DNA of 64,000 bases. It comes from Polytrichum commune (taxonomy: Eukaryota > Streptophyta > Polytrichopsida > Polytrichales > Polytrichaceae). Below, piece after piece: positions 8,901 to 62,062 of this stretch; the stretch's first letter is position 1, and each line of letters starts with the position of its first letter. Both the position numbers and the translations under genes were made by a program. The notes under the pieces were generated by a model that did not search any database, had not been told where the DNA came from, and saw nothing but the letters and a program-made list of their open reading frames with translations. The stretch lies in assembly GCA_950295325.1 (NCBI GenBank), contig OX485807.1:40330440-40394439 (forward strand). Reading direction: 5' to 3'.

Positions 8901-9437
8901 AGAAGACACTACTACGCGGGTGTGTGTATAACCTTCTCAATTATTTTTAATCTTTTAGAAACATGTTATTATTTATCATCGTGAAATAATCAAACCGCTC
9001 GTGGTTGGGTTAAGATTTGTGGTCTAAGTAGAAAGAAAGTTAGTGAATAGAAATTAGATTTAGGTCAATTAGTTAGTATGAAGAAATCTATACAATGGAT
9101 GAAAGACAACGAATGACAACATCAAATGGATGATGGACAACGCATGTTGACGTTGAATGAATGAATGACAACGGAGGAGAACGTCCAACGTAGAGTGTGT
9201 GAGAGTGTCAATGCAAATGTATGTATGAGTATAAGTGGTAATGTGTATGTGGATAAAAATATGTGTAAGTGTAAGAAAAAGTTTGTTAATTTAGATATGA
9301 GAGATAAGCTAAAAGTTAGGAACTTGAAAGTGTACCACCCAATGTCTTCACCAAATCTAATGACAAAGGTTTGTGTATGTATGTATGAATGAAGATGTAT
9401 GTGTGTAAGTGTGTATAAGAAATAATATGAATAAAAA

Positions 9438-11030: not shown

Positions 11031-14000
11031 GATTGTAGTGCCAGTGATCACAATGATGATGATATAAATGTTGAATCGTTGAAGGATGTTGAAAAGATTG
11101 TCAATGAGATCTAAAACCACAGAAAACCAACTTCAATTATGTGATTAGCAATTTGCGCATTAAACCATCAAGGAAGTCTAGGATTTCCATTCCTATATGT
11201 CGTTTGGTTTCATTGGTTGTTGTTCGACCTGTGCTTGAGGTTGACGTGCAATTATTAGATAGTGAATTCATCAATGGCTATAGAGAAGGCGATAGGGTTC
11301 CCTATATATCAATTTATGATCAAAAGGGCAATCAATTTGAATTGAATATTGAAATGAAAGCAAATTGGAATGTTCATTGGCGTGCAGCTAATGCCTCATT
11401 TGAAGAAAAACTTAATGCTGATGATAACTATGTCAGTTCGCGAAACAAAATGTTTTTAGTTTGGGAAGGAAATCATCATGTGACTGCATGGTGACTGCAT
11501 ATAGAGCGTTTTCATGCAGAGGATCCATAATGACATTATGCAGTTGATTGCATATGCTTGAATGCATTTAGCAATGTTGGAGTTCTTCTTGAAGCAATGC
11601 ATGAAGTAAACATGTATAAAATCCATATTCATTTTTTGCAAGTTCTTTTGGTCTTTGATTTTATTTATTTTGACTAACATTTTTTTTCCTAGGTCCACTG
11701 AAAGTGACCATGTGAAGACCAATCTTGTCCACAAGCTTCATCGCATTCGTCATTTTGGTCTTTTATTTCTTGAGGATTTCAAATCACTTTGCATATTTGA
11801 ACTTTGCATGCTTAATTTTATACATACATAAATTCTTGTATACTTTATTTTCTTATGTGCTTAACTTTTTGCATACTTACATATTTGATTATTAGATATT
11901 TGAAATCATTTGTACTTAAGTTCTTGCATGATTAAATATTTGATTTTTTTATATTGTCATTATTACATACATTAATCTTGTAAATTTTATACATATTTAT
12001 AATTTGAGTATTTATCCAAGTCAATATCCATTCAAGCTCCAATCTATAACCGGAGATGACATTGAAAAATTTGTAAAACATTGTTACATCAACAGTTCAT
12101 GGCACATACAAGATACGGTAGTGGAGGTGGTGGAATTCTAGCCCAATGTTGCGTACAACTAATCATTTTCCACATTCTCTAGGAAATGAAAAAAAATTGG
12201 ATTCATTTCTTGCTCGAGTATCTCTGTAGGCGCAAATATTTCATAATATTTCAATTTCATGTCACATGTAGATGCTTAATTATTTAATATGATTCTTATT
12301 TTTATATATTGATTTTATGTGTGTTTATTTTCTTCATTGTGTAGTTGGAGGAGGAGGTTGTAAAAGAATTAGAGAATATTGAAAAATAGTTGGGTAAAGT
12401 CAACTAGAGGAATGATATACTCAAGGCCTCTGATTATGTTGAGAAATGGAGTATTATGTTTTGGGATAAAATAATCTTCATTTTAATACGTGCAGTACCT
12501 CCATTCTCTAAGGGCACTAAGCATTCAGACTTTCATTCCGGAGAGATAGTTATGAAGAGAGTTTTATATATGTAATTTGAACTTTAATACCGTATTTAAA
12601 TTGTTGAATATTTTCATTACAATTTTCTAGTTGCAATGCAAAGACTAAGTATGTGTAATTGTTTAATACATGTACATGCGAATATGGTTGTTCGCAAAGA
12701 AAACAATAGTATTTATTTATTTGCATGTTTTCTTAAATGCTTGGATAGACAAAACCCACAAAAATTGCATTTAGACTCCCGCACAATTGAAACTTTGGGA
12801 TCTTCATGTTTGCCAAGAATGTCCTTGGTTTGTGTTTTCTGGTTTTTTCTACCCTGTAGAAGAAGATGTTGAACCTAAGGCTGTAATCGGAAGTACCCCC
12901 TTGATGCATCGCAAGATACAATTGAAACCAATAATATTGATTTCCAATCCATGAAGGAAGGTGTGGTAACACAAACCGAAAAACGTAAAAAGGGTAAGAA
13001 GGTTGATATTCCATATACACCTCCAGATGTAACCACAAATGATGCAACATGTATATCTATTCCTATCGACGTAGACAAAATTTTTTTTTTCCGCAACAAA
13101 TCTCTATTATGGTTCAACAACCTACAGGATATTCTTCATCGTTGGTTCAAGTGTTGTCGGAAAACATCTCTATCATGGGATTGATATTAACTCCTTCACA
13201 TATTTTATTATTGAAGACTCACGACTTTATAAAGCAAGTGAGCATCTACATCATTTATTTGATAATTCAAGAATTATATTTAATTATTAGTTTGTTATTA
13301 TTTTTTCTAATGTTGTTTTATATTTGCGAGTGCAGTTTGATGATGTGCATACAATACAAATTGAAAACGATACATGCTCGCACAGAGGATTCGATTTGTC
13401 AATCGCAGATTTGTCTAAAGGACTTCTGATGCCTCTTGTTTCACCATCTGCTATTCTAAAATGGAATAAACACGATAGTGATGAGATAGAAGCAATTTTT
13501 GAATTTGCATTATATTTTCTTCACGATGATGCACATATTCTTTTATTCGTGTCAGAATCAAAAAATGTGTGACTTGATGTTCGAACATGTGCAGCAACTC
13601 ACGAATTTAATCTCCTTAGAGATTGGTGGGGCATCAAGTTCATGCATCTATGCTTGGGTGTGGATGCATCTGCAAAGGTATATGTAGATGATAATTATTT
13701 CAAATTTCTTACATGAAAGCATCAATGTTGGCGTGAGAAACACTCGTATACTAATATTCATAATGTTGTTGGTTTTGTAGTCAAAGAGATTTCATATTTT
13801 TTTATACCGCCGAGCCATAAAAAGTAACATGGCCATCTCATTTAACAAGAATGAAGTACTCATCAAAGAATGTGTTAGTATCAAGGATGATGATATTATC
13901 TTCAACTACACATCAAAGAATGACCAATTGATGGATGGTTCAATGCCATGGCGGGGTGCTAAAAAAAAACATCGAGACATACATCAAATGTTTATCGAAT

Positions 14001-14614
14001 CATTAACTAAGTCTGGCGGAGTAGTTGTGGATGTCACTGCATCAACAAATTCATTATCTTAACTGTAACAAAATTATGTGCATTTGTTTAAATTAATTTT
14101 TGAGTCTACCATATTGAAATCTATTTCAATGATGTTTGCGAGTGCGTATATTTATGCGTGTTTGAACAGTGGTTGTCACCTTGTTGCATATGAAGCGGAC
14201 TCCCAAATTTTTAACATCATTCTTGCTCCAGTTCGTGCATTGTCCGCTCAACGTTCTAAAGTGCAAACATCAACACAATCAATGATCATGGAGGATGATG
14301 AATAACTTGTCAAAAAAATGGCTAGAAAAAACTCGTTTGAGTACGTGAGTTTCTCATTGGATTTTTTTTAAATGAATCTATTTTCTCATTGGCATTTCTT
14401 TATTATTTCTCACTCATATGATGTTTGCAGTGCAGAGTTCATGGAGTCATTGGACTCCCTTCCGAAAGCAATGGCGTTTCTTGTATATGCAGAGACTATT
14501 GCTATTGCACGGCCAACCATGTCCACACCCATACCTCGTACGAGAACAAGGAGATTTTTGTCACAGGTGAAGATTTTTTTCCTCCTAGAGGCAACAGAAG
14601 ACCGTAGTATGTAA
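11031..14614 (+). pseudogene. ParB-like / amino-methyltransferase-like gene, copy 1 (decayed)
   Basis: This is a more decayed paralogue of 37808-43706. The first recognised exon follows an acceptor (GATGCAG, ending 11030). It contains a ParB-like domain: FINGYREGDRVPYISIYDQ, then NKMFLVWEGNHHVTAW, where VWEGNHH aligns with the ParB-type DGNHR box. A TGA at 11492-11494 ends that frame, next to a duplicated GTGACTGCAT (11480-11489 and 11491-11500). The reading then continues with HIERFHAE and LLEAMHEVN. An intron at about 11614-11692 precedes STESDHVKTNLVHKLHR. The MKRVLYM end and its donor (near 12572) match copy 2. The methyltransferase-like part starts at 13336 (FDLSIADLSKG, ILKWNKHDSDE), has a TGA at 13570, an intron at 13678-13780, then PWRGAKKK, GGVVVDVTASTNS and GCHLVAYEADSQIFNIIL. 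A last donor GTGAGT follows FEY near 14342. The middle segment (12640-13000) aligns poorly. It cannot make a full protein. Confidence 0.7.
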
Positions 14615-15094
14615 ATATATTTGTTTTGGTGTTATTTTTTATTTAATTTGACAATTGATTTGATTTGACAATTGGTTTGATTTTGAGAATTTAAAAAAAA
14701 TTACTAGTTTTATTGGACGCAATGTGGAGAGTTGCTAGATGATTGCAATAAATGGGTTTTGTTTTCAAAATTCTAAATTAACTTGGTTTTCATGGATTTC
14801 AAATTTTTTGTAAGTAAGATCATTTATCCATTAAGGTGCCTCTATTGGCATAGAATTTATTTAACAACGTGTTGGCCACTTCTATTGACTTTTGAATTTA
14901 AAAAACAACCTAAGCATTTGCACATAATCAAAGTAATGTAGATTTATACAATAAAGACAAATTTTTCCATCCCCCTTTATATTTTCACGAATAATGTTCA
15001 TATACTTCATGTCAAAAATCCACGGTTATAGGATACAAGTGTGTGTAAAACCAACATCCTTTCCCTCCTCACCACTCACATGATAGCACTCCCC
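14615..15094. mobile_element. Right-hand terminus shared with the composite element
   Basis: CCACGGTTATAGGATA at 15020-15035 and CTCACCACTCACATGATAGC, running to CACTCCCC at 15094, match 43787-43889, which lies after gene copy 2. Beyond CTCCCCA the two copies diverge (GGGTGACGG here, CTATTGG there), so the shared boundary marks an element end. The matching left end and transposase were not found upstream of copy 1; that side may be deleted or replaced. 14615-15019 shows no recognisable content. Confidence 0.65.
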
Positions 15095-28414: not shown

Positions 28415-29041
28415 GATAGTAAGTACCTAAAGAACATTTAAATGTACTTGTTATAAACTGGACACAGTTACCTTCTTCCTAGATGCAAATAGGTATTATG
28501 AAGTTCAGGGCCCTTGTGCAAGTGATGAAGTTCACTGACTCTATTCTCACTCGAGCTAGAGTGATTCATCGCCACCAATAAGGCTCACCTCAAAACCACC
28601 ACCTTATGCACACATAAGGTAAGTGGGTAGTAAACAAGCAATTTCTCTCTGCACATACTTTTCGTAGTGTATGAAACATGCAATTAATGAGAGATGATTA
28701 ACAAATTCACATTGTGCCCGTAGCCACTTCCCTCTTACTGTTCTGTGCTTGTATGAATATCCAATTCATATTTTAAATGAATACTCTTTGAATTATTACA
28801 TGATCATATATACATGGTCCCCCACTTATGTTTACCATTGCGTCTAGAAAGGTTAACAAATTTTGAGCATGTAGTTCAATCCCTTTTCAAGACATGTCTT
28901 CTTGTTGTCCCAACTGTACACTACTCAAATAAAGGTATTCATGAAAGAGCAGACACCAAAATATCAAGCACATCTACCTTGATTCGCGTTGGTCACATCA
29001 AAGACATGAACTATAAATTGTTGGGGTAATGTCTTATGTGA
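28415..29041. other. Intergenic DNA, no gene recognised
   Basis: Short frames only; nothing assignable. Confidence 0.5.
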
Positions 29042-29345
29042 GCTACTTTTATTGCATGTCTTATGTCCATGGTTAATTACTAGCACTGTAAGATGTGGGC
29101 TACTTTTATTGCATGTCTTATGACCATGGTTAATTACTAGCACTGTAAGATGTGGGCTACTTTTATTGCATGTCTTATGACCATGGTTAATTACTAGCAC
29201 TGTAAGATGTGGGCTACTTTTATTGCATGTCTTATGACCATGGTTAATTACTAGCATTGTAAGATGTGGGCTACTTTTATTGCATGTCTGATGACCATAG
29301 TTAATTACTAGCACTGTAAGATGTGGGCTACTTTAATTGCAAGAT
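29042..29345. repeat. 57-bp tandem repeat, ~5.3 copies
   Basis: Units begin GCTACTTTTATTGCATGTCT at 29042, 29099, 29156, 29213 and 29270, with a partial unit at 29327. They are nearly identical. Because 57 is a multiple of three, the minus strand reads as an open 19-residue repeat (LVINHGHKTCNKSS); this is a by-product of the period and has no independent support as a protein. Confidence 0.9.
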
Positions 29346-31819
29346 GTGCTCTCTCATGCATCACAACTTTTACCCAAGGTTGGCATGCGATTTGTAATTG
29401 GTCTTGGGAGGAAATTGATTGATATGGGTCACTGCTGCACATCAAGTTCACATCAAGTTCACATCAAGTTCACCCATTTAACAGAAACCAGTGTCCATTG
29501 GAGCCTGATTTCAGGATCCTGTACACAGCTTTTGGTGTTTGGGTAACTTTTAAGGCCAGTAAATGATCATTCGCTCTTGGCAATGATATTGTACGTGTTC
29601 ACTCAGATGGTTGAAGAAGTAGCTGCTTACAAAACCATTACATCTACACTGTCTGGTATATAGTGGCACATGTGTAATAGTGCCATTTACCCTATTTAGA
29701 GGTGTATGCTAGATTATATTGATGATGAATAACTTCACCTTAGCTATCATCTCACGACACTTGATGTTCAAGTGTGTTTACTAATGTCTTGGCATGAGCA
29801 TGTTCAATAATGTTATGAGGTGCATGCTTATGTTACACAATGATCTACAAGTTGATTGAAGTGTACACAAATGACACTTGACATTTATATGCTCAAGAAC
29901 GTCTTCCTCTTGCACACTAAACTTTAAACACGTGACACTTGCCATTAGTACGCTAAAAAATATCTTCCCCTTGCAAACTAAAATGTAAGTCTATCATCTA
30001 AACTATCCCAATGTGCTAAATGTCCTATTATAGATTTTTTTAAAATTTTAAGCTAAAAAAGTGGCAATCCTGCATTATGGCCAAAACCACGATAACAACC
30101 GATACTCATCAATTGTTTGATATCCCTTTTGAATCACTCTCATGTTGACAAATAGAATCATATTGGCAATTAGTGGGCCTGACACTTTGAGACCTCTAGG
30201 AGTTTAGTTTAGGCCCTTTGCAAATGGGTGTACGTGACACTAAATACCATAAATGTTGTAGTGGAGTTAGAATTATTCACATCATGTGAGTTTCCATGTA
30301 GGCCACTCGCCCACTAGATTCTAGATAATAGTGGGTGGGAGGTGTTCACATGTAGATAAGCACAAGCCACCAATCAACCACATTCTAGTGGCTACTAGAA
30401 TTTGGCGGGCCATGGACACATGACGCTAGACTTCCATGCGCCCACTAAGCACTTTTTAACCTACAAGTGCCAGTCATCAAGGGATTGAAGATTGGTTTTA
30501 AAAAGGAAGAGGTTAGTAGATGGACCCAAATTTGTAAAGATGAGAGTAGCTACACTAAATTTGTTATTTAGTGTCACCAATTCTGATTGTCTTGCTCAAT
30601 ACTAATTGTAAAGTGTACTAGTGTAATGTCACCAACACTAAATGTTAACCCAACATTATTTGTCATTCCTTGTAAAAAAAATTTGGGATTATAGATGTAC
30701 AGTGTTGCAATTACAGTCACTAACCAAGTGATTTTTCATCCAAATTTCAATCATCCATGACAATATTTTATCACAAGTTGCTGACAAGAAAAAGTAGGGG
30801 TTTAGCCAATGGATGAACTCATCCATCATCCATGACAATATTTGTTCATTTATTCATAAGTGTCATCCAAAAACTTACCATAGTGACATAAGATACCATA
30901 TGACACTAAATGTCATATGTAGTGTAGTATCATCCACATAAGAGGTGGATTGAGGAAGTGCTATTTCTTCCTTATCTTTTGGATAATACATGAGAAATTT
31001 CATTTTGATGCCGTCCAAATTGTTGCGCACATACCAGTCTATGATGGCGTTGTGGACATTAATTTGTTATAGCTTCTGGAAATTTCACCTTGATGGCTTC
31101 CCACTCTTAGTGGATAACCCCAACGCCTTGAAAGGTCCTCCTTGCCCACACGAGTGGGAATGGGAAATTGGACAAACTGGTGCACTGCCTTTCGAACGGG
31201 GGTTATGTTTGGTTCCAACCCCATAGAATTAGCCGATTGCACGTTCAAATGCCTTTTCCTTTTATTAAATTGTTTAAACACCATGTTGGAATCCTCTAGC
31301 TTGTCATCTCCCATCCTCCATCTCCATTCCGCCATCACCTTTATTAACATGATAGATGTGTATTTACAAACGAAATTTTAAACACGCTCACACACATGGC
31401 GGTATCCACACCTCAATGCCAAAAATATTCAATCCAAAATTGGCAAGGGTTTCATCCCATCATTTATCTTCCAACTCCCTTTGACCCTCTCTACAGATTG
31501 GGCAAAGTATGTTAAACATGCTAGGCCCTAATATCGCACTTGAGGCGAGGTGGTTGAAAGTTAGGTCAATGAGACCTCGCACCTTATAGATAGGTTGGGA
31601 GGGTCTCATATTCTTTGGGGTTGATCTCCTCAATCATGACCGTTGGATGCGGTTACAAGGCGGCAATCGACCAAGACAAATGATTGCTAAGTAGTAGTTG
31701 ACCAAGATAGTTGACTTAAGGCAAATGAGTACTTAGTAGTAGTTTAATAAGGGCAATCAACTTTTACTTTGTAATCAATTGTTGGATTGCAGTCGACCTA
31801 TGTTACCTATTTTATTGAT
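29346..31819. other. Intergenic DNA with scattered MITE-like ends
   Basis: No gene recognised. Ends related to the 5-bp-duplication MITE family occur near 29643 (CTACACTGTCTGG), 30230-30256 (GACACTAAATACC to TTGTAGTGG), 30549 (CTACACTAAATTTG) and 30900-30927 (GACACTAAATGTC to AGTGTAG). I could not pair them with flanking duplications. The minus-strand 103-residue frame near 31039-31350 has no recognised domain. Confidence 0.4.
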
Positions 31820-32125
31820 TGCTACTTAGTGCAGTTGATATAGGGCAATCATTTGCTACTTAGTGGAGTTGACATAGGCCACTCATTTGCTACTTAGTGC
31901 AATTGATATGTGGCACTCATTTGCTACTTAGTGCAGTTGACATAGGGCATTCATTTGCTATTTAGTGCAGTTGACATAGGGCACTCATTTGCTACTTAGT
32001 GTAATTGATATAGGGCACTCATTTGCTACTTAGTGCAGTTGACATAGGGCACTCATTTGCTATTTAATGCAATTGACATAGGGCACTCATTTGCTACTTA
32101 GTGTAGTCGACTTAGTGCATTAGAC
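31820..32125. repeat. 34-bp tandem repeat, ~9 copies
   Basis: Units beginning TGCTACTTAGTGCAGTTGAC recur every 34 bases at 31820, 31854, 31888, 31922, 31956, 31990, 32024, 32058 and 32092. Sequence just upstream (31680-31800) holds degenerate relatives of the unit. Non-coding minisatellite. Confidence 0.9.
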
Positions 32126-32379
32126 TATTTGTTAGCAGTCAATTTAGTAACCAATAATCATTTTAGTGAAATTGCTTGTTGTTTAGGAATCAACCTAGAC
32201 ACTTGGTTGTTGGTTTGTAGTCGATGTAGTTTTTTGATTGTTGATTGTTGGATGGTCACATGCCTTTTACAAGGCTAATATTTCCATTAGTATTATCCAC
32301 CATCATGCATTCATCAAGGTCATGAAAGAAATTAACGAGGCAAGAAGTATATAAAAATTGCCAGCCTATCATGCAATGC

Positions 32380-33440: not shown

Positions 33441-33550
33441 GAGGGAAGCTATCTTATAAGCGATGAGCAATGAGCAGTGAGCGGTGAGCAATAAGACATG
33501 AGTGGTGAGCAATACGACATGAGCAGTGAGCGGTAACATATGAGTAATGA
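33441..33550 (+). repeat. Left terminal inverted repeat of the composite element
   Basis: Begins GAGGGAAGCTATCTTATAAG and is built of short GAGCRRTGAGC units, including a duplicated GTGAGCAATA(A/C)GACATGAG block. It aligns in reverse complement with the right end near 43889. The extra internal units make it longer than the right repeat. Confidence 0.7.
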
Positions 33551-33782
33551 ATTCAAAAATAGTAAAGGTGCACGGGTTTAGGGTACATGAACTAAATATA
33601 GTACTACATGAATTGAAGATTTTCAATTGTAAAGAGTTCAATTGAAGCAAGAAGGAAGCGTATTACCGTGGATCATTTGAAATGCTTCCAGCCCATTGCT
33701 GATTTTTATTATAAAAATCCAAACCAAAACATGTCATATTTTGACATTCAAATATATGGTATTTAATAGACCATTTGCAATA

Positions 33783-36700
33783 CTACTTACACTCTACAAT
33801 ACCAGCAAGTTCAAGTCGTCGCATGACCTCGTTATAGGTATATGTAGGTGCATGAATGAACTTGTCACTCTCGTAATCCACCTTGCACAAAAATCTAAAC
33901 ACATAATAAAGATATTTACAATACACCCATTTTTCTTTCTTTCCCAATGCATGAGAGGACATTTTCGTGAAATCCGGGCATGTGCAATGCGGGATGTCGC
34001 CAATTGCGACATGGTAGGTGATATCATGCTTGGAGACAATGTTGATTATCACTCCAAAGCCCGGATATGGAATGGCAGTGACCCCAACCACATAGTAACC
34101 CTCCATGAGTCCGGCGCTCTCCCATTTGTTTTTGTGATCCGTTAGCGGTGCTGTTGGATTACGACGCACTGTCTTCCCAAACCTGAATGTAGGGTGGGCG
34201 TCCGGGTTTGGTGGCATAGAAAAATGCGAACGAGGGATGGGGAGAGTTGCGATTGTTGAAAGCCTACGACGAGGGGACAATGCCTCCCTCTGCTGTAGTT
34301 GAAATCCAGCATCTTCAAGTGCCAAAATCTCCTCTCGCGATAGATTGGTACCTATCTCCACCGGCCACGTGTTGGGTACTATAGGCCAGTCCAACACATA
34401 TTTCTTCTTACTGCCACTCACACAACGTTTGATGTCGTCAGGGCAAAACCAAAATTCATACTCCACATTGTTGGGAGAGCGAAATTCCTTCCTGAGCCCT
34501 TTGTATGTTGGAACAGGTGTGCCATGTTTTCTAGTCCCGACTTTGGCATTGCACATAGTCCTTGTAATGGCCTGTAGTGCCCAACATCGTTTGGCTGAGT
34601 TGGGTGGTAATCTTGCAATGTGCTACTTGGAAGCAAGACAATCTGTCTCTAACACGGATGTAGTATGAGCCACACCATGAATTGCAGAACTCAACGATTC
34701 CTCTATGCGTTGATGAGTTACTCAGGTGTTGGGACGAGGAATGGAATAGTTCACTTTGTCGGGTCGATGAGAGTCACAATCAGCACCCGGTGGTAGGTTG
34801 AGTTTGCGTTTGGTGGAACCAAAGAGCTCTGACCCTTCCAATGCACAATCTCTAGTGTTGACGTCTTCTGCCCCTGGATAAGACTTCATGGCATCGGCCA
34901 ATATTTTTGGATCTCCACACTTGGCAGCCGCTTTGAGTTTCAAGGATGCCGAATCAGAACCTTTACCATCAGACCCCCCTTTCAACCATGTCCGGTAATT
35001 TGCAATTTGCATGAAGGCACGGATCATGTCGTCCACTGTAGCTTCATATAAACAAGTCATCTTGTTGCCGGACTGTTGGAGCCATTTATTGTGTACAGTC
35101 TCTGCAAGGTTGCATGTTGGCATTTCCGCACGCTCTTCTATTGTCATATCCTATGAACAACACACAAATACAAGATTAAGAAAAACATAAGATATATTAT
35201 ATATCAGTGGCAAGATATTGAATGACAGTGAATAATGAAGTTTGATATGTACTTACAAGTAGCATATGACCACCCCATTGTCTGTAACAAAAGTGCCAAA
35301 ATTCCAACCACTCTGAAAGGCAAGGATGTCTTCTTCCGAGGCAGCTCCAGATGATAACCACTAAGAACGAATCACATGGTACTTAGTCTCAACGTCATCC
35401 ATTGTTTTCGCGTCTTTGTAATCCTTGCATATTTGTTTTGTGTTGAAACTGCAAGGATGGTTTAATATACTTTTGGGTCACCTTATTCAAGCTTGCAGAC
35501 CAATGGAAAAGACATGTATGCTCACGTGCAACCATGGGTAGACTTGGATCACCATCCCCGTAAATCGCCCTCATCGCATTCCAATTAGCTTGAGCACTAT
35601 CAGCCATAAACCCTTTAAAGTTTACGTTTGGTACATAATTTTCTGCCATAACAACATTCAAATTTTCCCAAAAGAGAATTTGTGTTGCACCATCTTCAGA
35701 TTGCATGTCACAACACACAATAGTCAACACTTTACAGTATTGACTGTCGTACACATGGCATGCCATGGTCGTCAAGTCCTTCAAACGTTTGACATGGTCA
35801 AACATAATCCATGAATTCTCCATGTCCCCACCGACTTGCATCCTCTTTACAAGCTCCACACCACTACCTGGAAGGTCTACATACATCTTGAAAACAAATA
35901 CTTTGTCTTTTGACTGCCCTGGAAACCGACTACCATGGACGAACTTGAAAGCAGAGTGGTCTTTGAGTGCCATAATACTATCCATAGTTTCCATTCCACT
36001 ACGCAAAAAACGCTTTGATCCATATACAAAGTTACAACAATTCGGAGACGAAAGAGTGCTGAATTTGTCCATGACTACCTCTAGGGATGAACCAACCAAA
36101 GTGATGGTCTTCGACAGTTGCGGGAGATTTGAGAAGGTAATTAGCTAAGAATTGTTTGTTTGTTGCCATAATTATGGCTAAATTTTTGGCTGTGGGTGTT
36201 TTCAATACTTCATTTGCAACGCACTGGTATGCCATGTCCAATGACTCACGGCATGCGCCATTGGCTACAGGGTGATCATGTACACCAATATGAATGCAAG
36301 CCCTGGACATTCCAACAGATGTGGATTGGATGTATATAATTCGAGCATGACATAAAACAATACACACATGTGTGAAACGACATACCTTACACTCAACAGT
36401 GGACCTAGTGGGAGGAACATTACCCACAGCAAATGGGAGAGGAGTTGAACCGGCCCATTCATTGTTGTTCCGGAGGCCCCCATTGCGATTCATGTAATCA
36501 CAGTAGTCATTAGGACATTGGAGATGACCAGCACAAGTAGAACGCCGGAAGGACAATCCAAAATCATTTTGGATATTGGTGGTTTTGGTGGTGCACCAAG
36601 GGTGACCGTCGCACATCTTGTCCATGCCGTCCATTGAGCGGCCATACGTACTTGGAACTTTAAGTGCCACAGGGGGTAAGCAAAACAAAACATCACCATT

Positions 36701-37411
36701 AAAAGAAGATGGTAAGTACTTGACATCACGAACATCTATACTATCAAAATCAATGGATGCGAGATCTAACTTTGATTTTTTTCTTGACTTTGTCAGCTTC
36801 AAGGCATCAACTATAGTCAACCCTGTAGATGAAGGTGAAGGGTGTAGTGGAGGACGTTGAGAGGGTGACATTAGGGGAACCACCCTCTTGTACATAAGAC
36901 TGCAAGGAGATTTGGATACATGTATAGGAAGTTGCAAAGGAATAGAATGAACACCTTTAAATGGAAACGGCGATGTGTTTGAAAGATCAACAAATGCACA
37001 AATGTCATCTTCTGAATCCGATAGCACAAACACACTATCATCAAGGGGTTCTACCTTAACATGTGCGGTAGAGGGAATTTGAACTGTGGATGTACCGGAT
37101 TCGTTTGTCAATATGACAGTAGAAGCTTGCATCTGAGACTCAGAAAGACCTATCATCCTATATGAACCAGGTCCTAAGTTCCACATAAAACCAACATCTG
37201 TTCTATTTTTTTGAACCAAAATCGTTTCATACACCTCTCTATCTGCAGAGTACATCTCCTGCTCTAAATACATGGAGCCTATCTGGAGGTTGAATCTCAA
37301 ACTAAGTAAATCCTCTGAAACACTCACATGACCATCATCTTGAAGTGACAAAATGAAGGGAACAAAACATCCATGAGCTCTAATGGTAGCCATGGAAAAT
37401 GGAAAGATCAA
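33783..37411 (-). pseudogene. Mutator-like (MULE) transposase, decayed
   Basis: This would encode a cut-and-paste transposase that acts in the nucleus on the element ends. The N-terminal 459-residue open part starts at 37411 or 37393 (MATIRAHGC). It includes a Cys/His-rich DNA-binding-type segment (CAGHLQCPNDYCDY, VECKVCRFTHVC). The next piece (36099-35395) has the catalytic core with NFKGFMADSAQANWNAMRAI and CLFHWSASLNKVTQKY, typical of plant MULEs. Then follow DMTIEERAEMPTCNLAETVH and, at the C terminus, a SWIM zinc finger (HCTCPDF, then WVYCKYLYYVF), where Tyr replaces the usual final His. An intron fits at 35151-35256. Damage: frame breaks near 36090, 35430 and 35325, and in-frame stops at 35361-35363 and 34722-34724 and near 34612. 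It is divergent from the gene at 37808. Confidence 0.85.
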
Positions 37412-37807
37412 TTGAACAAGACATCATAATAATTTTGGGTGAATGTTGCTTTTATATAGAGGTATGTGATGAAGTGAATGAAATTGAAAACGCGTCATAC
37501 AATAATGGATGGTGATGAAAGCGTGTGATACCATAGCATCTAATAATATGGAAGTAAACATATCACAATAATAGTTAGAGAATATTTACAAGCAAGATAC
37601 ACACAAAACAACGAGGCTAGGGTGTCAGAAACTTGTGGGCCTTATAATAAAAATATAAACAAAATGAAAAACGCGTTAAAATATTTCGTTCATTAGACGC
37701 CAATTGCAACATGAATGATCGTAATATACGTTGGATTTATGTGGGATAGACATATTGGAAGAATAAATGATAGTGGACTGATAGAGGACACATTATAGAC
37801 ACCAACG
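37412..37807. promoter_or_regulatory. Divergent promoter region between the two element genes
   Basis: A TATA box reads TATATAAAAG on the minus strand at 37458-37449, roughly 40-65 bases before the two candidate transposase starts (37411, 37393). On the plus side, a weak A+T-rich TATA-like stretch (AAAATATAAAC, about 37649-37659) lies about 150 bases before the ATG at 37808. The two genes would therefore be driven outward from one ~400-base segment. Confidence 0.5.
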
Positions 37808-38204
37808 ATGGTGGAGGATGTAGAGAGAACACCCGTGAGGCCGAAGAGAAGGCGTAGGAAAGCTTTGTATTTTACTTCTGAGAAAAAGAGGTTCAGACTG
37901 AGTATGAGAAAAAAGAATGCAAACAAGGAAGGGAAAATAAACATGTTGAATACGATAGTAGAAACTGTGAAAGCACTGGATTCTGATATGATGGAGGGTG
38001 ATGAAGGTGCACATGCAGACGATCGTATATCGGACTCGGAAATGAAGACGAGTTCAAATAAGACAACAAACAAAAAGGTAAGTCAGCTCAACGTAAGTCG
38101 ACAATATTGTTGGGCATATGCTTTAGTTTGTTTAAAGTAGTTAATTTAACAAAAACTTTATTTAGAAGGATCTATGCACACTTGCGTAGGAAAACCTTCT
38201 ATGT

Positions 38205-38348
38205 ATCCAACCTACTTTATTTCTTGCCTAAGCACTAGCTCATTAAGGGATAGCACCAGTCAATGCAACCAACTAGATTCGAACCCAAGTTGGAGCAGAC
38301 CGAAATATCAGTCTCTTTAGACAACTCGCATCCATAGGTGGATGTCTA
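38205..38348 (-). mobile_element. tRNA-derived SINE, copy B
   Basis: Minus-strand copy of the sequence at 8750-8900, with GATGCGAGTTGTCT, a B-box-like GGTTCGAATC (plus 38276-38285) and GGTGCTATCCC. It lies in the long first intron of the ParB/methyltransferase-like gene, so it inserted after or with that element. Confidence 0.5.
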
Positions 38349-38476
38349 TACCATTTTTTCTTACACTTTTATATATTTGTCGATGGTATGAGAGAAGTGA
38401 ATACTTGGAATATCGGCGGCCCACCCGAACATCATTTCTGACAACGAGTTAGAAAGCTTAAAAGATAGAAGGGAAA

Positions 38477-39089
38477 ACCCTGTGCGTTAGCGCACATGGT
38501 TGTTTAGGGTTTCTAAGTCGCTTCCTAATATCCTCTGCGTTAACGCACGGGGTTATTTACGCTGTGTAAATCGCTCCCTAATACCCTGTGCGTTAACGCA
38601 TAGGGTTTTCCCTCGTAATTTCTAGGGTATCTAAGTCGCTCCCTAATATCCCGTGCGTAAACGCATAGGGTTGTTTAGGGTTACTAAGTCGCTCCCTAAT
38701 ACCCTCTACGTTAACGCACGGGGTTGTTTACGTTGTGTAAGTCGCTCATAAATACCCTGTGCGTTAACGCACAGGGTTTTCCTTCCTAACTTTTAGAGTT
38801 TTTAGTTCGCTCCCTAATACCCTGTGCGTTAACGCACAGGGTATTAGGCAACGACTTAGAAACCCTAAACAACCCTGTGCGTCAACGTACATGGTATTAG
38901 GGAGTGAACTAAAAACCCTAAAAGTTACGAGGGAAAACCCTGTGCGTTAACGCACAGGATATATGGGAGCGACTTAGAAGGTTAAAATTTAGGATGGAAT
39001 ACCCTGTGCGTTAACGCACAGGGTATTAGGGAGCGACTTAGATACCCTAAAAGTTAGGAGGGAAAACCCTGTGCGTTAACGCACAGGGT
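38477..39089. repeat. Array of eleven 24-bp palindromes forming a nested inverted repeat
   Basis: The unit is a perfect or near-perfect palindrome with half-site ACCCTGTGCGTT, centred on GTTAAC. Copies start at 38477, 38530, 38583, 38648, 38701, 38754, 38819, 38872, 38937, 39001 and 39066, so spacing is mostly 53 or 64-65 bases. Spacers left of 38819 carry CTAAGTCGCTCCCTAAT and those to the right carry its reverse complement ATTAGGGAGCGACTTAG. The whole block is therefore one large imperfect palindrome centred near 38830/38831. It lies in the presumed first intron of the plus-strand gene. No protein is encoded. Confidence 0.95.
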
Positions 39090-39523
39090 ATGTACGAGCG
39101 ACTTAGAATGTCTAAAAATAAAACAAATAGCTATTGTATAAATTGAAAACGTCATGTAAAGTGTTGAAACTAAAAATTTGTTCAAAATGGGGTTAGGATG
39201 TAAAAAATGAGTAATATGCCTACTGAGATATTCATGTAGTATGTGACAGGAGCTTAAAAATGACCAAAAACAGTAAAATATTTTTTGTGGCCACAAATCC
39301 AAAATCTACGAGGTGGCCAAAAACAATGAAATAGATAGAAGAATGAGTAAAGAAAACGATATTAAACACACAAAAAATACTAGAGAAAGTTGTAGCCATG
39401 GAGATTTAGATAATTTACAATATTTTTATTGTTTTTTTCGGACACGATTAGTATTATTTATAGATTTTACAAGTTTTGGCAAATCTACCAAAAAAAAAAA
39501 ACTTTTTCAAACCTTTAGCATAG

Positions 39524-39678
39524 ACCCTGTGCGTTAACGCACAGGGTCTACGCTAGCAACTTTCAGACATATGTAGTCAGGTGCATAGACCCTATGCGTT
39601 AGCGCACAGGGTCTACGCCCGCAACTTTGGTAGGCCTCAAAGTTAGGGGCATAGACCCTGTGTGTTAACGCACAGGGT
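39524..39678. repeat. Second cluster of three 24-bp palindromes with different spacers
   Basis: Same palindrome (half-site ACCCTGTGCGTT) at 39524-39547, 39589-39612 and 39655-39678. The flanks are GCATAG before and CTACGC or CTACCC after, unlike the CTAAGTCGCTCC spacers of the main array. All three spacers here run in the same direction (direct repeats about 65 bases apart). Between the clusters, 39090-39523 is A+T-rich and unassigned. Confidence 0.92.
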
Positions 39679-39894
39679 CTACCCTAGTTGTTTAGGGTAA
39701 GCCGCTACCCTAATCACACAATACTTAAACTACCAAAGTCACACCTAAAATTTTTTTTTTTTGTCATTCTTCCTCTTGTTGGTGGTTCTTTGTTGTTGTG
39801 GTGGCTGCTGCTATTGCTGCTCTTCTTCTCTTGTTTTTGCTCATGTGTTGCCACTACTTCTAGTGTTATTCCTATTGGTTTAGGTGGTATTAGT

Positions 39895-40080
39895 TCAGAT
39901 ACTAATCTATTGTTCTTATTGTTGTTGTTTGTGGTGCTGCTGCTATTGGTGTTGTTGTTGCTGCTGCTGTTGGTGTTGGTGCTGCTGTTGCTGGTGTTGG
40001 TGTTGGTGCTATTGGTGTTGTTGTTCCTGTTCCTACTGCTGGAGTTGGTTTTGATGTTTGTTTGGCTGGACGTGGTGCTA
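39895..40080 (+). repeat. TTG/CTG/GTG trinucleotide microsatellite
   Basis: Interrupted TTG, CTG and GGTG units over ~185 bases give a Leu/Val-only frame on the plus strand and a Thr/Pro/Ala frame on the minus strand. Neither is likely to be coding. It sits in the same long intron as the palindromes, about 180 bases before the exon at 40264. Confidence 0.85.
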
Positions 40081-43000
40081 TCATGTTTTGTGTTGTTCTT
40101 CTACTGTTGGTGTTGGTATTGCTGTTGGTACAGGTATTGTTTTTTCTCTACACCTTTAAGCATGTTCTCTTATGTAATCAAATACCTTCATATTTTTATT
40201 GAAAGTTTTAAAACATACTACATCAAGAAGATTTCTAAAATTTATGTCATTGTTTGTATTTAGGACCAAACAATGGATGTGGAGAAATCAGTTCCTCTTT
40301 CCACGGATAATGATTCCACAAAAATCTCAACTCAAGATTGTCCATCCAAACAAGTTCATCATGATCAAGACATCTCATCAAACTTTCACAATAAGAATAA
40401 GAACCCCTCAATGATTTTGACTCCGATGAAGACAACGATGGTGATAATAAAACCTATCAACAGAAAGTATGGGAGCTTACGGACAAGCGAAAGGTTAATT
40501 TCACTTCAACAATTTCCTCAATCCGTGCTGGACCGAAATCTCGTTTGCGTGTACCCTTATGTCGCATGGTTCCGATGCCTATTGTGCATCTTGCTTTGAA
40601 AGGCGACATCACTAAATTGGAGGCTGATTTTTTCAATGATTATCGTAATGGTGACCGTGTGTTTTATCTATCGGCCACCGACTCTAAGGGAAATTTTTAA
40701 TTTGTGGATGACGAGGTTCGTGCATCTTAGAGCCAAATTGGGCTCAAGCTAATGCGGTGTTTGAAACTCAATTAGATGTCGACCCTTCATTTACATCATA
40801 CAAGAACAAGATATTCTTCATATGGGATGGTAATCATAGATTTTTTGCTTAGAAAATTTATATTGACCGCTTGCATACCGAACATTATGAGCGTCATGTC
40901 TTTGTGGATTCCATCATTTTGGCGTCCGAGCTTGATGACATTCCAAGTTTGTTGACTGCTATGCACGACATCAACAAGTAATGTTCTTACTTCTTTTTTT
41001 TCATTTATTTTTGGTTTGTATTTTGTTATTTGAATTATATCATTCTAAATTCATGAATTCAATATTTTTTCAGGTCAACAGAAAACTCTCACGTTTCTAC
41101 CAATTTGGTGCATACTTTGTATCGGATGCAAAGTATTGGCACCATGCCTTTGAATTCTTTTAAAAAACAACTGGATTCTAGAGGTTATAAGCGATGTGAG
41201 GAGAAGTCCGTCGAAACTTGGTATTCTTTGACGCGGCCAATTTTTCTTGATTACATATACAGTGTAAGTTTTTCTAGCATTTCCTACTATGTTTTTAATG
41301 TTTATTTATCTTTCATTTACATTACATCTATATGCACTTATCAATTTTGGATTTTATTTGATTTTTCAGCAAGAACTTGCCGAGGCTAGCGATATTGCTC
41401 TCAACTTTTACAATGAAACCCATCATCTTGAACGAACTTCAGAAGGAGTTTCTAAAGCAATGTCCGCAGCTGTCAACAAAAAACGTGCAATGTTGTCTTC
41501 TAGTTTTACAAAACAACTAGCGATTGCTGACATCAACCTCACCCCTGCTTTTCTTGAAGAAGTTAAGCACCATTGGGGTTCATTTTCGGTGCCTGAAATG
41601 TTACAAGAGAAACTTCATCGTGTTGCTGTTAGTAATGTGGATCCAGATGTCAAAGTCGGATGGCTCAAGCTTTGGAATGACAATAGATTTGACAAAGATG
41701 CATTTCATTTTCTGAAATCACCCCTCTTTGATTGTGCACTTAATGATTGGTTATCAAAGTCTACATATTGGGCACAGTTAGAAAAAAAACTATTAAAGAG
41801 CTTCAAAATATTCTTTCATCTCCTCTTCAATTGCCTACAGATGTGCCTACTCTCTCCGAATATATCCAAACCTAGAAGTTTGCAGCTTTCAATTCAATAT
41901 TCTATCGTGAATTCAAAAGCGGAAAAGTAAAAAAAACACAACGTTTGGGATGAGCAATTGAATATTGATCTTGCTATGAAGCGTGTTCTATACATGTACA
42001 ACTTATTCTTTATTATGTCTTGATATTTTTTCATTACATTTTACTTTTCATTAAATATTTGGCTCATAATATTTTTGTGTGTAGGTATTTTCGATATGTT
42101 TTGATTCCACACAAATGCGTTATAGGGGAACTTCGTTTTTTTCCAAATTGGCGTGACACTGGTGCGGAAGATTCATGCATGTTCACTACTAAAATTTGTT
42201 TGGATTGGCCGCTCCCACACTATGAGGATTGTGGTTGGTATCTTGATTGTTCTAAGGATGCATGTCTGTCAAGTGAGAAGGCAATCCGTCAGATAAATGA
42301 TGCCAAAAATGTAGATCCTCGTGATACTGCAATTTTGCAAGCACAAAATTGTGCAGCTTAAACTTAGAGAGCCATAACCAAAAGAAACAAAACGTCGTAA
42401 GAGAAAACATGTTCCTGAAACCAAAATATAAGGTCAATCGAAAATTTCACAATATGAAGAATTGCTTATTCTTTCTAATGATTTGGATAAGAATACACTT
42501 GGAGGCGAAAGTTCAAAATCCGGATGCGATATCTTGACTTCAACCTCTCCAATAGACCTGCTGAAATTCCTCTTTGGAATAAATATGACAAGAACTGGAT
42601 GGTTGCAACAATGTCCTTGTGCAAGTCCATCTTGTCTAATGATGGCATCCTCATAGTATTTTCCGCTATCGATATACAAACCAAGAAGGTTTTGAATTCA
42701 ACCTTACACAACGGCAACATAAAAGTTCTTAAGACTTTTATTTGCCTCAATTCGTACATGGTGTTCAAGGATCCGGAGTCTTCAACCTACACCGTAAGTA
42801 TAACACATCACAATTGTTTCTATTTAATTATTTTGGTGTTATTTGTATTGTATATAGTTTTAATACAATTTATATTTTTTTTGTAGACTCCGGCATTTAT
42901 GGCTCATGTCTTGGTAAGGGATTTTACTACCACAAAATCCACGAGACAACCAAACTCCACTTTTTTTGGCACTGGATTGAAAAGCAAAAACTTGCTTTTC

Positions 43001-43786
43001 AATTTTGTAGATGAAAAAAATAGGCTTCTTAAAAAATCGGGAAGACCTTGGAGGGGGCCATATCAAAAATCGCCGCGTTTTTTTTCAAGATCTTATTGAA
43101 TTGTTTACACTATCGAATGGACGCGTTGTTGATTTGACATGTTCCACTGGAGCTTCTATCCTAGCAACACGCGCATGTGACAGACATCTTCTTGCATTTG
43201 AGGGTGATAATGACATGTTTGAGCACATATTGAAACCGCTTTTGGAAAAGGTTTTGAAAGAGGGGTCATCTAAGGAGAAAATACAAGATCTCACAAATAA
43301 AGATGATGACCTTTCGGATGAGGAGATGCTTGAATTTGAGTGTGAGTAAGTTTTGATACAATAAATTTTTATTCAATTCATTCGTTTCATTCAATTCATT
43401 GGTTCATTTTTATTTCTTCACATTATTTACATGTTTCATCGATTTGATTTCAGGAATACGATTGGAAAGAGGACATGTCTCCCGTTTTGGGCACATAGAC
43501 AATTCCTACGAAGTCCAAGCCGTAGCCCGCGTCTCCCATCATATGCCGAGAATGTTGCAATTGCAATGTTGAATATCGAAGATTCGGATCCAAATGAAGA
43601 ATCTTGCTATAGTTCCAAAATCAATTCGCAATGCAAAGGTGCTCGAATATATATAGATGACGAGGCAAAAGATAGTTTCATGTCTAGTGCTACTAGTGAT
43701 GAATAAATATTTGGACTTCATGTTGTTTATCCTTCTCAACCCTCTTATTACTAAACCCTAAAATCATCATTTTTAAGGCCACAATT

Positions 43787-43889
43787 CCACGGTTATAGGA
43801 TATTGGTGGCCCTATTACCAAAATTTTCATCTTCCTCACTGCTCATAAGTTACCGCTCATCGCTCACCGCTCATAAGATAGCACTCCCC
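43787..43889 (-). repeat. Right terminal region of the composite element
   Basis: CCACGGTTATAGGATA at 43787-43802 and the terminal inverted repeat CGCTCACCGCTCATAAGATA to CACTCCCC (ending 43889) match the terminus after gene copy 1 (15020-15094). In reverse complement they match 33441-33550. It starts about 80 bases after the stop of the plus-strand gene. Confidence 0.75.
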
Positions 43890-57214: not shown

Positions 57215-58225
57215 GTTGCAATTCTTGCTAGCTCCCCTTACCTTATCTTCACCATTTCGCAACTCTAGCAAATGTCACGAGCGCTAACCTTGGACATCCC
57301 ACACACACGTGCATGGTTAGCTCCCCATACCAACCTCCAAGCTCATAGCTTGGTTACTAAATCCTCCTACACATGCATGTGGGACTCTCCCCTTAGTAGG
57401 TAGCCAATGATTAGGTGCAGACTTCCATTCATGTTCATCCAATCTTGAGTTGATCATCGCGTTGCCAGAGCAACATTATAACAACCCAAAGCATACTTGA
57501 CACTTTGCCCCCACGTGGGGCCAAAGCCCGTGGAGGCCACGCTGGTATGCAGTGGGTGGGGTCAGTCGGCAAAGTTGCCTCCCCCATATAAACCTTTAGG
57601 ACTTTGTGCAGGGCCCCAAGCCTCCACCCCACCGTCAAGTAACCTTTTGTCTTCTTCTAAGAGTTGAGGTCGGGTAGACGTTTTCCCTTAGCTGGTGGGG
57701 CTGAAACCCCCCAACAACTTCAAACCTCAATAACTTTGTTGTCTGATTTCCGATTCTATTGAGTGACCAGTCCATCGACATCTATGCATAGATGCCCATA
57801 GACTCTTATTTTGCCCCATTCGGGCAAATAATGTGGGAGTTATGGTTGTCCTAACCTTGGCAGTCTTGGGTGCCACTCCCGGGTCACTGCTGTCCCACCA
57901 TAGCGCCCCCTTGAGTGTTGGGCGCTTTCCTTAGGCATCGCCCCATTCAAATTGCCATATCTCCTAGCTCACAACTTTGATTGGGGATTTCTTGAGCATT
58001 CTAGAATCTAGACGCCATAAGCTACTTGATGCTTATGGCTTTACCCTCGTGACTCTTAGTCTCTGTGGGTGGGAGGTGTTCCCAACGCCTGGGGCCCTCA
58101 CCCACACTAGGATCACTTGGGCCTTCTCAGCTATGGCGCCACGAGTCCCGAGTGTCACTCCGGGGTCCCTCTTATGCCCATGGTTTTGCGGGCACTCCTC
58201 ATGGAGAGGTGCACGACAAAAGTGG
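57215..58225 (+). repeat. ~1-kb dispersed repeat, copy 1 (inverted relative to 61103-62062)
   Basis: Blocks shared in reverse complement with 61103-62062 include CTTGCTAGCTCCC, ATCATCGCGTTGCC, GAGCAACATTA, GGAGGCC, ACTAGGATCACTTGGGCC and ATGGAGAGGTGCACGACAAA. It is G+C-richer than its surroundings. I see no protein domain. The two copies flank 2.9 kb of unrelated DNA, so they might be the arms of one long-TIR element or two independent insertions. Confidence 0.7.
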
Positions 58226-61102
58226 ACAACTAACCACGTAGTTCGGCCGCGTTGAAAGATTCGGACAATAATAGGACTAGAGATAAGATTGTTAGTCCTA
58301 TTGTAGGAATCTATCCTTGAGGTCGACATGAAGAGGATGCCATCAACCCCTTTAATTCAACCTCAAGGGAAATTTTTATACGTGGATTCTTTTCTTTCTA
58401 TTTCATTTATTTTTTATTTTGTTTCAAACGATGTTTTTAAATCCAATGTTTTAGGTTGGAGTCCTAAAATGTGTTAGAAATTCAAGGCAACAAAATTAAA
58501 TTAAAAATATATGAATAATATAATTTCCCATATCTCTTCTTTCAAAAGAACAAATTCACATGGGCTTGATTTTTTTTATTCCATGCCTTACTTGTAGATG
58601 TCTTCATGATCAAGTTTTTAATATTGCATTCATGCTATCCAAATCCAAAACATGTGCCCAACTGCACGAATGTAGTAAGTTGTCATGGTTTAAAATTGTC
58701 AACTAATTCACTTTGAAATTTATATAGGACTCTAGAAATACCTCATTTGCATGCCTCTCTCTATCCAACTTTCACATCCTCAAGTCCCGAATTCCATTCA
58801 TACTACATCAACATAGTTTTTTAAAACCTTCCTCATTATACAAACATGCCTTCATGTTGTGGAGGGAAGTAGCCACATGACTCATATGTGCAATTATGTT
58901 GCCTCTTTACACGTAAATGACCTTGGCTCAAACCCATTTACCATATTATATAACTAGAGTGTCATAATTGCTTACATATTGCATAAAAGGAGATTTGTCA
59001 CAAATAAATAAATATTATAAATATTTGATATTATATATGAATATTTATCCAAACCCAAAGTCAAGCCCAAATGTATTGAAAGCATAATGCACATAGACTT
59101 AATAGTATTTTACTAGAATCTCAAACATTTTGATATTCTAATATTAGATAAAGTACAAAAATGTTGGATTTATTAGTGGTTGTTCACAACCAAACAACTT
59201 GACTTCTATCAAATTCTCATTGGTCGGATTCACTCGTGAGGCGAGCAAGGTTGTCTTTTGCAAATGTTATGTATTTTTCAGAGATGGATAGTGACCCACT
59301 ATGTTTCTTTTGTGGTTTCCATGCTACAAATATGGAATATGTGGCAATTCATCTTGGTCCATACTCCATTAGTAGAAAACTATGCCAAAAAGAACTTAGC
59401 CGAAACTCGACTGCGATTTTGACCATCTTGATCTGATTTGTTTTTTTGGTCTAGCAACTAACCTTTAGGAATCGGGGAGCGTATAATATATCGTTGGAAA
59501 GTTCTTGAAAATACCTTTCCAACAGTATATTACATGCCCTAAATATTCAAAATTGTAGTTGAAAAATGAAAACAAATTGTGGTTGTTTAACGACTGCAGA
59601 TTAGGTTGGTCAAAAGAACTGCACCCAATTTTGGTTGTGGTTTTTTTGGGTATAGGTTTCTTCTAGTGCTCCTAATCCACCCTCCAATAAAAAAAAAGTT
59701 GTATCCCAACTTGTATAATAATGGATCTTATCTCCATCACATATTTTTGGTCAGTAATATTCCACCTAGATTTGCCGAAAATAAGAACAAAAAATTACAA
59801 AATCTGGTCGAGACAAAAAATTTTCCACCCAAACCAGTTTAGTATATGTTTCATCTCCAAGGTGCAATATGGGAATTGGTTTACAAGGTTTGGGCTCCCC
59901 ATGTAGTACCATGGCCTTACCCTCCTCCTCAACATGCCAAACAAAAAGCCCCTCTGGTAGGCTTTAATCTTAAATAATGCATGATAGTTTATACTTCATG
60001 GCCGGAATACCATCATATGCTGTAAAACCAAAATTATTGAACCTTTGTGTGCCCAATTAGACGCTGAGCTCCACTCCAAAAGTGTTGTTCTATAAATGCT
60101 TCAAATTCTAGCACCTCTTTAATCATATTTGGGTTGACGGGAACATTGTCCAAATCCATGTACAACCTCGTCCAAAGTGGGATTGTTGGAAAATCCGCCC
60201 CAAAAATGCTTCAATATTATGGTGCATTTGGCCTACCAATATAAAAGATAAAAATGCCTCCTTGAAAATACCTTTCATAAGCAGTAAAGAGCAATAGATG
60301 AACACAAATCTACTTTTATTGTTTTTGGCACAATTGTTTAGTTATATTTGCATAGTTGGGGACAATTTTTTTGCAATCACAAGCTTATTAGGGGATTTTC
60401 ACAATGAATCCAAGCATGCATCTTTTTCATCTAGTGCTACCCCATATAGAGGTGTCGATCCAACATTGTCAAATAGCTATCATGAGGAGTACACTGGTGG
60501 TTTCTCCAAATGATGCAAAAACTGTGCAAATGATGGAATGGTGTGGTTTAAATCCGCCATATACAAATCAAGAGCTAAATGGATAAATTTGACATCATTA
60601 TAGCAATGAGCAATCATCCCCACAAGAACAACCCAAAGACTTGTTGTTGAATAAAGACTAGCTATAAGGCTTTGGAGAGAACCACATAACTTATAACCAA
60701 AATGGGTAGCTTAAAGAGTCTATCCGAAACCTTGATTTGATGACCAAAACATGGTGAGGTTGTTTTGCTATGGTGTCACTTATGCTCTTACAATGTAGTT
60801 GAAAACAAGACACACTTTGTGTTGAAGTGTGTATGCCACCCAAACTGCTTGTAGTTTGATTTAAGGCTCACTGCCTAGTTACAGAAGGAAAATAACTGTT
60901 AGGAATTAAATTAGTATCGATTAGTTAACATTGTTAGATGGTTAGGTAATACTTTAAGATCCGGCAAGGTGTTGTGCAGATGAAAATGCGTGCAGAGGAA
61001 GGTGTATATGGATGAAAGTGCATGTAGATGAAGACATGTGCGGATGAAGGTATTGAGAAAATGAAAATGTTGAGTTGATGAATGTGTGTGTGCATGAAGA
61101 CG
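58226..61102. other. DNA between the inverted ~1-kb repeats, no gene recognised
   Basis: A+T-rich, with short frames lacking motifs and no transposase domain. If the flanking repeats are the arms of one element, this is its interior, and the element is non-autonomous. Confidence 0.45.
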
Positions 61103-62062
61103 ATGGCTCTTTGTCGTGCACCTCTCCATGAGGAGTGCCCAAAACACCATGGGCACAAGGGGGACCCCGGAGTGACACCCGGGACTTGTGGTGCCATTGG
61201 TGAGAGGGCCCAAGTGATCCTAGTGTGGGTAAGGGCCCCGCGCGTTGAGAACGCCTCCCACCCATGAAGACTAGGAGGCACAAGGGCAAGGCCATAAGTT
61301 ATGCATAGCTCATGGCGTGGTGATTCTAGAATGCTCAAGATCACCTCAATCGGAGGTGTGAGCTAAGAGTTATGCCAAATTGAGTGGGGCGCTGTCCCGA
61401 GACAGCGCTCTGGTACAGAGCAGTGGCCTGGGAGTGGCTCCCGGGGCTGCCAAGGTTTAAACAAACATACCTTCCTCAATACTTGCCCGGATGGGGCAAG
61501 TGAGGAGTCCATCGGCATCTACGTGTTAGCATCAAAACTCATACAAGGAAGTTATGATGGTTTGAAGCTGCCAGGGGCTTCTAGGCCCAGTGGCTAAGGG
61601 CAAATGTCTACTTGGCCCCAACTCTTGGTAGAGAGACAAAAGGTTTCTTGACGGTGGGGTAGGGGCCCCGCGTAGAGTCCTAGAGGCTTATTTGGGTGAG
61701 GTGGTGTGGCCTCACCCACCCGAGGCCGAACGGCACGGCCTCCATGGGCTTTTGGCCCAATGTGAGGCCATAGTTGCCTAGTATGCTTCGGGTTGTTGTA
61801 ATGTTGCTCCGGCAACGCGATGATTAACATAGGATTGGACTTCCATGGATGGAAGTCCACATCGAAGAAATGGGTTACCGATTAAGTGGTGAGTCCCGAA
61901 AACAAAGTAGGAGGGTTGGTTCCCTCCTATGAACTATAAGGTCCGGGGTAGGAGGAGCTAACCATTAGCATGGCGGAATGCGAAGGGTTAGCTCTCGTAA
62001 CCTTTGCTAGAAACGAAAATTGGCAAAATTGTTAGGGAGCTAGCAAGGGTTGCGACACTCTT
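61103..62062 (-). repeat. ~1-kb dispersed repeat, copy 2
   Basis: Reverse-complement partner of 57215-58225, with the same order of blocks. Divergence is substantial, with indels in the AGCTCC-rich outer part, so the duplication is old. Confidence 0.7.

Follow-up and report, generated by a model that had tools for sequence, protein, structure and literature searches.

Positions 33441-43889 of the window (the whole 64,000-nucleotide stretch of Polytrichum commune DNA analysed here) hold one copy of a mobile two-gene element, a DNA transposon that is present in many copies and probably belongs to the Mutator superfamily. Its inverted ends are short, its target duplications measure 9-11 bp and its length ranges from about 10 to 17 kb. 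The element is mobile, is kept in its two-gene form across families, has recognisable domains, is under constraint and, in several families, contains family-specific palindromes in the spacer between its genes. By analogy with the VANC protein, we consider it moderately probable that the second protein of this transposon acts as a reader of its own element's palindromes, following a VANC-like logic with other domains.

The ends of the window copy are exactly those claimed in the earlier note: GAGGGAAGCTATCTTAT opens at 33441 and ATAAGATAGCACTCCCC closes at 43889. Terminus searches and paired copies delimit a left terminus at 33441-33550 (plus strand), made up of GAGGGAAGCTATCTTAT and subterminal GAGC..TGAGC repeats, and a right terminus at 43787-43889 (plus strand) ending in CTCACCGCTCATAAGATAGCACTCCCC. 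The transposase gene is on the minus strand. Its exon 1 (35251-37393) contains MADSA and CLFHW motifs, has approximate ends and undergoes a frame change near 36032-36099, while exon 2 (33783-35150) is broken here and includes a CxC..CxH SWIM-finger-like stretch that reads CKY in this copy and CKH in copy I6. The second gene is on the plus strand at 40273-43706 and has about seven exons, with stops and a deletion in this copy. Its exon 1 (40273-40977, plus strand) encodes a putative ParB/Srx-like domain with a GNHR motif, seen on copy I6 and relatives, and its exons 5-6 (42532-43345, plus strand) encode a DNA methylase-like domain, as recognised in copies C2a and I6. All exon borders were placed by eye. 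Between the two genes, at 38500-39690, is an array of the palindrome ACCCTGTGCGTTAACGCACAGGGT with eight GCGTTAACGC cores; this core is found nowhere else within the 64-kb window.

Both genes of the window copy are broken, with three in-frame stops in the transposase and five in the second gene, and, compared with the nine other long copies, the second gene lacks approximately 366 bp at 42532-42536. The 10-mers flanking the copy (GATTTAAACC and ACTATTGGCT) are identical at 3 of 10 positions and form no target duplication, and each flank matches a different dispersed repeat. The window copy may be a recombinant or may have lost one flank, and on its own it cannot prove a single insertion. Other repeats observed in the window include inverted repeats at 57922-61408, which are 103 and 189 bp long and approximately 3 kb apart (78-87% complementary, perhaps belonging to another terminal-inverted-repeat element), and tandem repeats of 57-bp and 34-bp units at 28979-29398 and 31785-32158, respectively.

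A divergent remnant of a second ParB/methylase-like gene is located at 11031-15094 (plus strand), with 25-53% amino acid identity by exon and a related right terminus. This gene had been described as a second copy ending in the same terminus; the terminus is indeed related, but the gene is only a divergent relative. Both a left end and a target repeat were looked for at this locus and neither was found. Upstream of the gene there is no palindrome array, and the three unrelated palindromes present there are a number that shuffled sequences also reach. A dispersed repeat is common to the element spacer (38152-38347) and to the region upstream of the 11031 gene (8724-9048), with 72-83% identity.

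The genome searched for further copies comprised 407.8 Mb in 64 contigs. Both ends of the element are multicopy, with 41 matches for the left end (best 40 of 355 candidates scored) and 40 for the right end (best 40 of 443 candidates scored). Pairing used 40 of the 41 left-end matches, one partial match being left out, and identified 11 same-strand left/right pairs at most 20 kb apart (2.9-12.7 kb), namely that of the window and ten others. Direct repeats were found at both borders of these ten: they are exact in eight (10 bp in seven, and 11 bp rather than 10 in C2a because of a C run) and agree at 9 of 10 positions in C4a and C4b. Further copies also have target duplications, exact and 10 bp long in I6 and 9 bp long in D5 and D7. 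All 13 exon queries (four for the transposase and nine for the second gene) were matched in each of the nine long pairs, while the tenth pair, of approximately 3.0 kb, is an internal deletion derivative retaining parts of both genes. As the pairs were picked by strong terminus matches, well-kept elements are favoured in this sample.

The earlier note had proposed to check whether intact copies carry both genes between the same termini with 8-10-bp duplications, and this is what was observed in nine of nine long copies, with repeats of 10 bp and, in one case, 11 bp. Its concern that the left and right termini might come from separate insertions does not hold for the family, as a common target duplication is present in 10 of 10 pairs. 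Separate or nested insertions were considered as an origin of the family's layout and rejected based on the target duplications and the joint gene content.

A similar conclusion regarding gene content was reached from the termini themselves. Among the right termini (best 40 of 443), the second gene was found within 8 kb inside 35, both genes were found at 30 and neither gene at 3, which contradicts the possibility raised earlier that most termini lack the plus-strand gene. The left termini (best 40 of 355) give a weaker picture: the second gene was within 14 kb of 23 and the transposase within 20 kb of 20, with both genes at 15 and neither at 12. With respect to gene order in the main family, an opposite-strand transposase was located upstream within 20 kb for 92 of 130 second-gene matches (two genes having been entered as two pieces each), compared to one convergent and two same-strand arrangements, in a survey that drew on 150 of 151 matches. 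When a divergent second-gene query was used, 34 divergent, one convergent and one same-strand arrangement were found among 150 matches. Candidate places numbered 1761 for the transposase exon and, with two different queries, 1151 and 1214 for second-gene exon 1, and the best 150 of each were scored; the counts of gene content and gene order are lower bounds among these best-scoring places. A better copy than that of the window, I6, has a second gene that is open in all seven exons (exon 7 extends slightly further), an open transposase exon 1 (713 aa) and a transposase exon 2 in a single frame with one stop.

The same layout is found in a distant family, N. Element N1 is 16.6 kb in length (C1:34531309-34547940) and has the 9-bp duplication AACTGGCCA at both borders. 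Identity to I6 is 46, 47 and 39% for its transposase exons and 27-39% by exon for its second gene, so that the main-family arrangement is retained despite transposase identities of 39-47%. At another family N locus, N3, no transposase was found within the 20 kb read.

Target duplications of the Mutator superfamily are 8-11 bp in length (PMC6446971). Those found here fall within this range: 10-11 bp in 10 of 10 pairs (two with one mismatch), 10 bp in I6 and 9 bp in D5, D7 and N1. The terminal inverted repeats GAGGGAAGCTATCTTAT / ATAAGATAGCACTCCCC are short and imperfect, and are longer in N1. A SWIM match was obtained in exon 2 of I6 (E-value: 0.016, 15.2 bits, under the cut-off of 19.6) and was absent from the list for N1. 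In Pfam and NCBIfam scans, the transposase matched no transposase model; what was returned fell below the cut-off, for example DUF6208 (0.011) and FERM_M (0.008). None of the 142 listed genome matches to PF10551 was within 5 kb of 150 transposase matches, comparison of a transposase profile with three canonical MULE PF10551 proteins using hhalign gave no match, and an AF2 transposase model from six close sequences was unusable (pLDDT 29.8). The "MULE" label given earlier is thus supported by the duplication length, the ends and the weak SWIM match, but not by any MULE profile. Because the core matches no profile tried and the model failed, we describe membership of the Mutator superfamily as probable, though the duplication length and the ends fit.

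In the main family, the spacer between the two genes contains arrays of ACCCTGTGCGTTAACGCACAGGGT. The sequence CCTGTGCGTTAACGCACAGG occurs at 490 sites genome-wide (reversed control: 0), and 45 of the 50 sites listed out of these 490, all on contig C1, lie no more than 6 kb 5' of a second gene of the main family. In copy C2a of this family, perfect palindromes are absent. For family N, GAGGCCTCGGATCCGAGGCCTC occurs at 1903 sites genome-wide (reversed control: 0), and 29 of 29 perfect copies in the stretch containing N1 (C1:34527000-34548500) are located between the two genes, where they form a dense array. The palindrome of D5 and C4_43M is GGCATCTCGGATCCGAGATGCC, that of C2_1M is GGTTTCGGTACCGAAACC, and C5_18M has three CAGAATTCTGCA-based palindromes. 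No spacer array was found in D7 (0 palindromes), C7_26M (1), C2_49M (0) or C6_35M (1, in a partial read). Random sequences of like composition contained a mean of 0.15-0.8 palindromes per region. As for control regions, second-gene coding sequence contained no palindromes and the transposase region contained three, all of a second type. This second palindrome (GTTTGGGTCG..CGACCCAAAC) is also present in the main-family copies I6, C1b and C2c, in their spacers, and in a transposase intron of I6. The palindromes are thus sited between the genes and differ from family to family, in several families though not in all.

The ParB-like and methyltransferase-like calls made from the window were both borne out, the first by the fold of exon 1 and the second by profile matches to the C-terminal exons. 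Following structure prediction for exon 1 (pLDDT 83.6, pTM 0.80), the best Foldseek matches of the model were Noc, sulfiredoxin, ParB and PadC (probability up to 0.99, E-value: 0.028 at best). VIA-align, which re-aligns only what Foldseek has matched and for which Z-scores of 7-8 are common, gave a Z-score of 8.4 and an rmsd of 2.2 over 90 residues against CTPgammaS-bound Myxococcus ParB (7bnr_A). Of the 31 VIA rows listed, 29 are ParB, Noc, KorB, PadC, Srx, SerK or SbnI (we take SerK and SbnI to be relatives within the ParB/Srx superfamily) and two are uncharacterised. The G and R of the GNHR motif are invariant in 21 of 21 members of the exon 1 alignment. Based on the model, the N-terminal domain of the second protein is predicted to have a ParB/Srx-like fold. 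At the sequence level, Pfam and PHROGs scans found no ParB profile in the second protein, PDB sequence searches gave no useful match, and, among viral sequences, a pattern search for relatives of the ParB-like exon produced 107 candidate stretches, of which none was confirmed. PF02195 has three matches in the genome, none of them inside these elements. These three are on contigs C12 and C23, the element matches being on C1-C7, and are possibly bacterial DNA in the assembly.

In the reading that we favour, the second protein would bind its own family's palindromes in the promoter region common to both genes, perhaps loading at them as ParB does at parS, with the outcome that the element's promoters are held open (anti-silencing) or that both genes are regulated. 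Under this proposal, the protein and its palindromes would change together, and each family would therefore address itself.

The divergence of the two genes bears on how they may have evolved. The transposases of I6 and of D5 and D7 are 80-82% identical over 1167 codons (dN 0.11-0.12, dS 0.98-1.15); in the same comparisons the second genes are 37% identical, with 651 and 550 of 1071 codons alignable, dN of 0.69 and dS of 2.2 or saturated. These values suggest either that the second gene evolves far faster or that modules have been swapped between elements. Trees of 17 elements, from which the window copy and C3_58M were left out because their second genes are short or split, are in conflict between the two genes. 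In the clearest case, C2_49M joins C6_35M/C5_18M in the transposase tree (100/100) and D7 in the second-gene tree (100/99); the reverse placements were each rejected by AU tests (p 0.0017 and 3.8e-7), the groups having been named after the trees had been seen. C2_49M may be a remnant, as its last transposase part and left end were looked for and not found. The transposases of C2_1M and C2_68M share 93% identity with that of I6, and their second genes are 62-63% identical to that of C6_35M and 45% identical to that of I6. Against exchange, the main family as a single clade is uncontradicted by the transposase tree (support 69/87), and we regard exchange of modules between transposase lineages as a possibility. 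Our proposal can be extended to a parS/ParB-like system proper to this group of eukaryotic transposons, in which a ParB-fold protein with a converted methylase as DNA reader loads at element-specific palindromes between the genes and from there spreads along the element, and in which protein-palindrome modules co-diverge and swap between transposase lineages; this extended version is possible but doubtful.

The C-terminal end of the second protein is DNA-methylase-like, judging from sequence comparisons. PHROG_67 matches this part with an E-value of 2.5e-8 (residues 49-234 of 241), and Pfam N6_N4_Mtase matches it with E-values of 4e-4 and 0.0027, both below the cut-off; aside from one spurious weak match, nothing else was found in Pfam scans of the protein. 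Of the 37 tblastn matches to phage records, 15 were listed, 14 annotated as methylase and one without annotation. Such matches would suit a second protein that marks the element as a working DNA amino-methyltransferase (m6A or m4C), with the ParB-like part targeting it. However, where we would expect the beta-class catalytic motif, which we take to be (D/N/S)PP(Y/F/W), translations read by eye have QFPD in the main family and DLPE or DIPE in D5, D7 and N1. The catalytic motif looks degraded on this reading, which makes methylase activity doubtful and the active enzyme unlikely. The earlier suggestion of a DNA-modifying or DNA-reading accessory protein is supported overall, with DNA-reading the better fit and DNA-modifying the poorer one because of this motif; the methylase-like part would read DNA rather than write on it.

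The second gene could also be a captured passenger with no role for the element, in which case the palindromes would be used by the transposase, in replication or at transcription ends. Gene capture by MULEs is documented (accessible text of PMC13317346), several families have no palindrome array, and the matched parts of the second gene contain in-frame stops in 9 of the 10 pairs and in the window copy, C2c being stop-free. These observations are consistent with a passenger, but across 55 pairs from 11 main-family copies the median dN/dS is 0.35 (0.17-0.82) for the second gene, compared to 0.51 (0.25-1.12) for the transposase. The presence of the gene at 35 of the best 40 right termini and a layout kept across families with such distant transposases likewise argue against this explanation, and we consider it quite improbable. 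Least likely of all is that the second protein acts on transposition rather than silencing, for example as a ParB-like clamp pairing ends or copies, as a ParB-like fold and palindromic sites like those of bacterial parS would allow, but the arrays are between the genes and away from the ends, and nucleotide binding is putative.

The interpretation that we favour, a reader of the element's own palindromes, is modelled on VANC of the Arabidopsis VANDAL elements. According to the accessible text of PMC5735166 and PMC10398659, VANC, which is encoded by a Mutator-group element and is diversifying, binds family-specific motifs in non-coding tandem repeats and removes methylation. The present element is similar in that it probably belongs to the Mutator group, has an extra, diversifying gene and contains family-specific short motifs in non-coding tandem repeats. 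It is different in that the motif is palindromic, the protein is ParB-like and methylase-like, binding and anti-silencing are putative, and the transposase is unseen by MULE profiles.

MuDR and Abermu also have a divergently transcribed extra gene and GGG...CCC ends, and Abermu ORFR, like the second gene described here, is more diverged than its transposase (accessible text of PMC9168764). In contrast, their duplications are mostly 9 bp rather than 10 bp, palindrome arrays are a feature of the present element, and that same text mentions no ParB or methylase domain (0 occurrences of "methyltransferase"). The exon 1 fold and palindromic candidate sites resemble those of prokaryotic ParB, Noc and KorB, and the C-terminal end resembles phage DNA methylases. 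Unlike these prokaryotic and phage proteins, the second protein is encoded by an intron-containing gene in a eukaryotic transposon, has a degraded-looking methylase motif and matches no ParB profile.

The earlier note knew of no described MULE with such a second protein, and no ParB/methylase gene in a Mutator-like element was found in the literature searched, including the accessible text of PMC6446971, PMC13317346 and PMC9168764 (for "methyltransferase" only), in a search that covered neither bioRxiv nor much of the subscription literature. Multi-gene MULEs are already known; what is new with respect to this literature is the ParB-plus-methylase partner with palindrome arrays. As the candidate sites are visible as palindrome arrays, the pairing of protein and site and their co-evolution are directly testable with open copies. 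VANC is the one transposon-encoded anti-silencing protein met in the literature searched. If the proposed reading is true, prokaryote-type domains would here have been assembled into an independent counterpart of VANC, or into a new form of element control.
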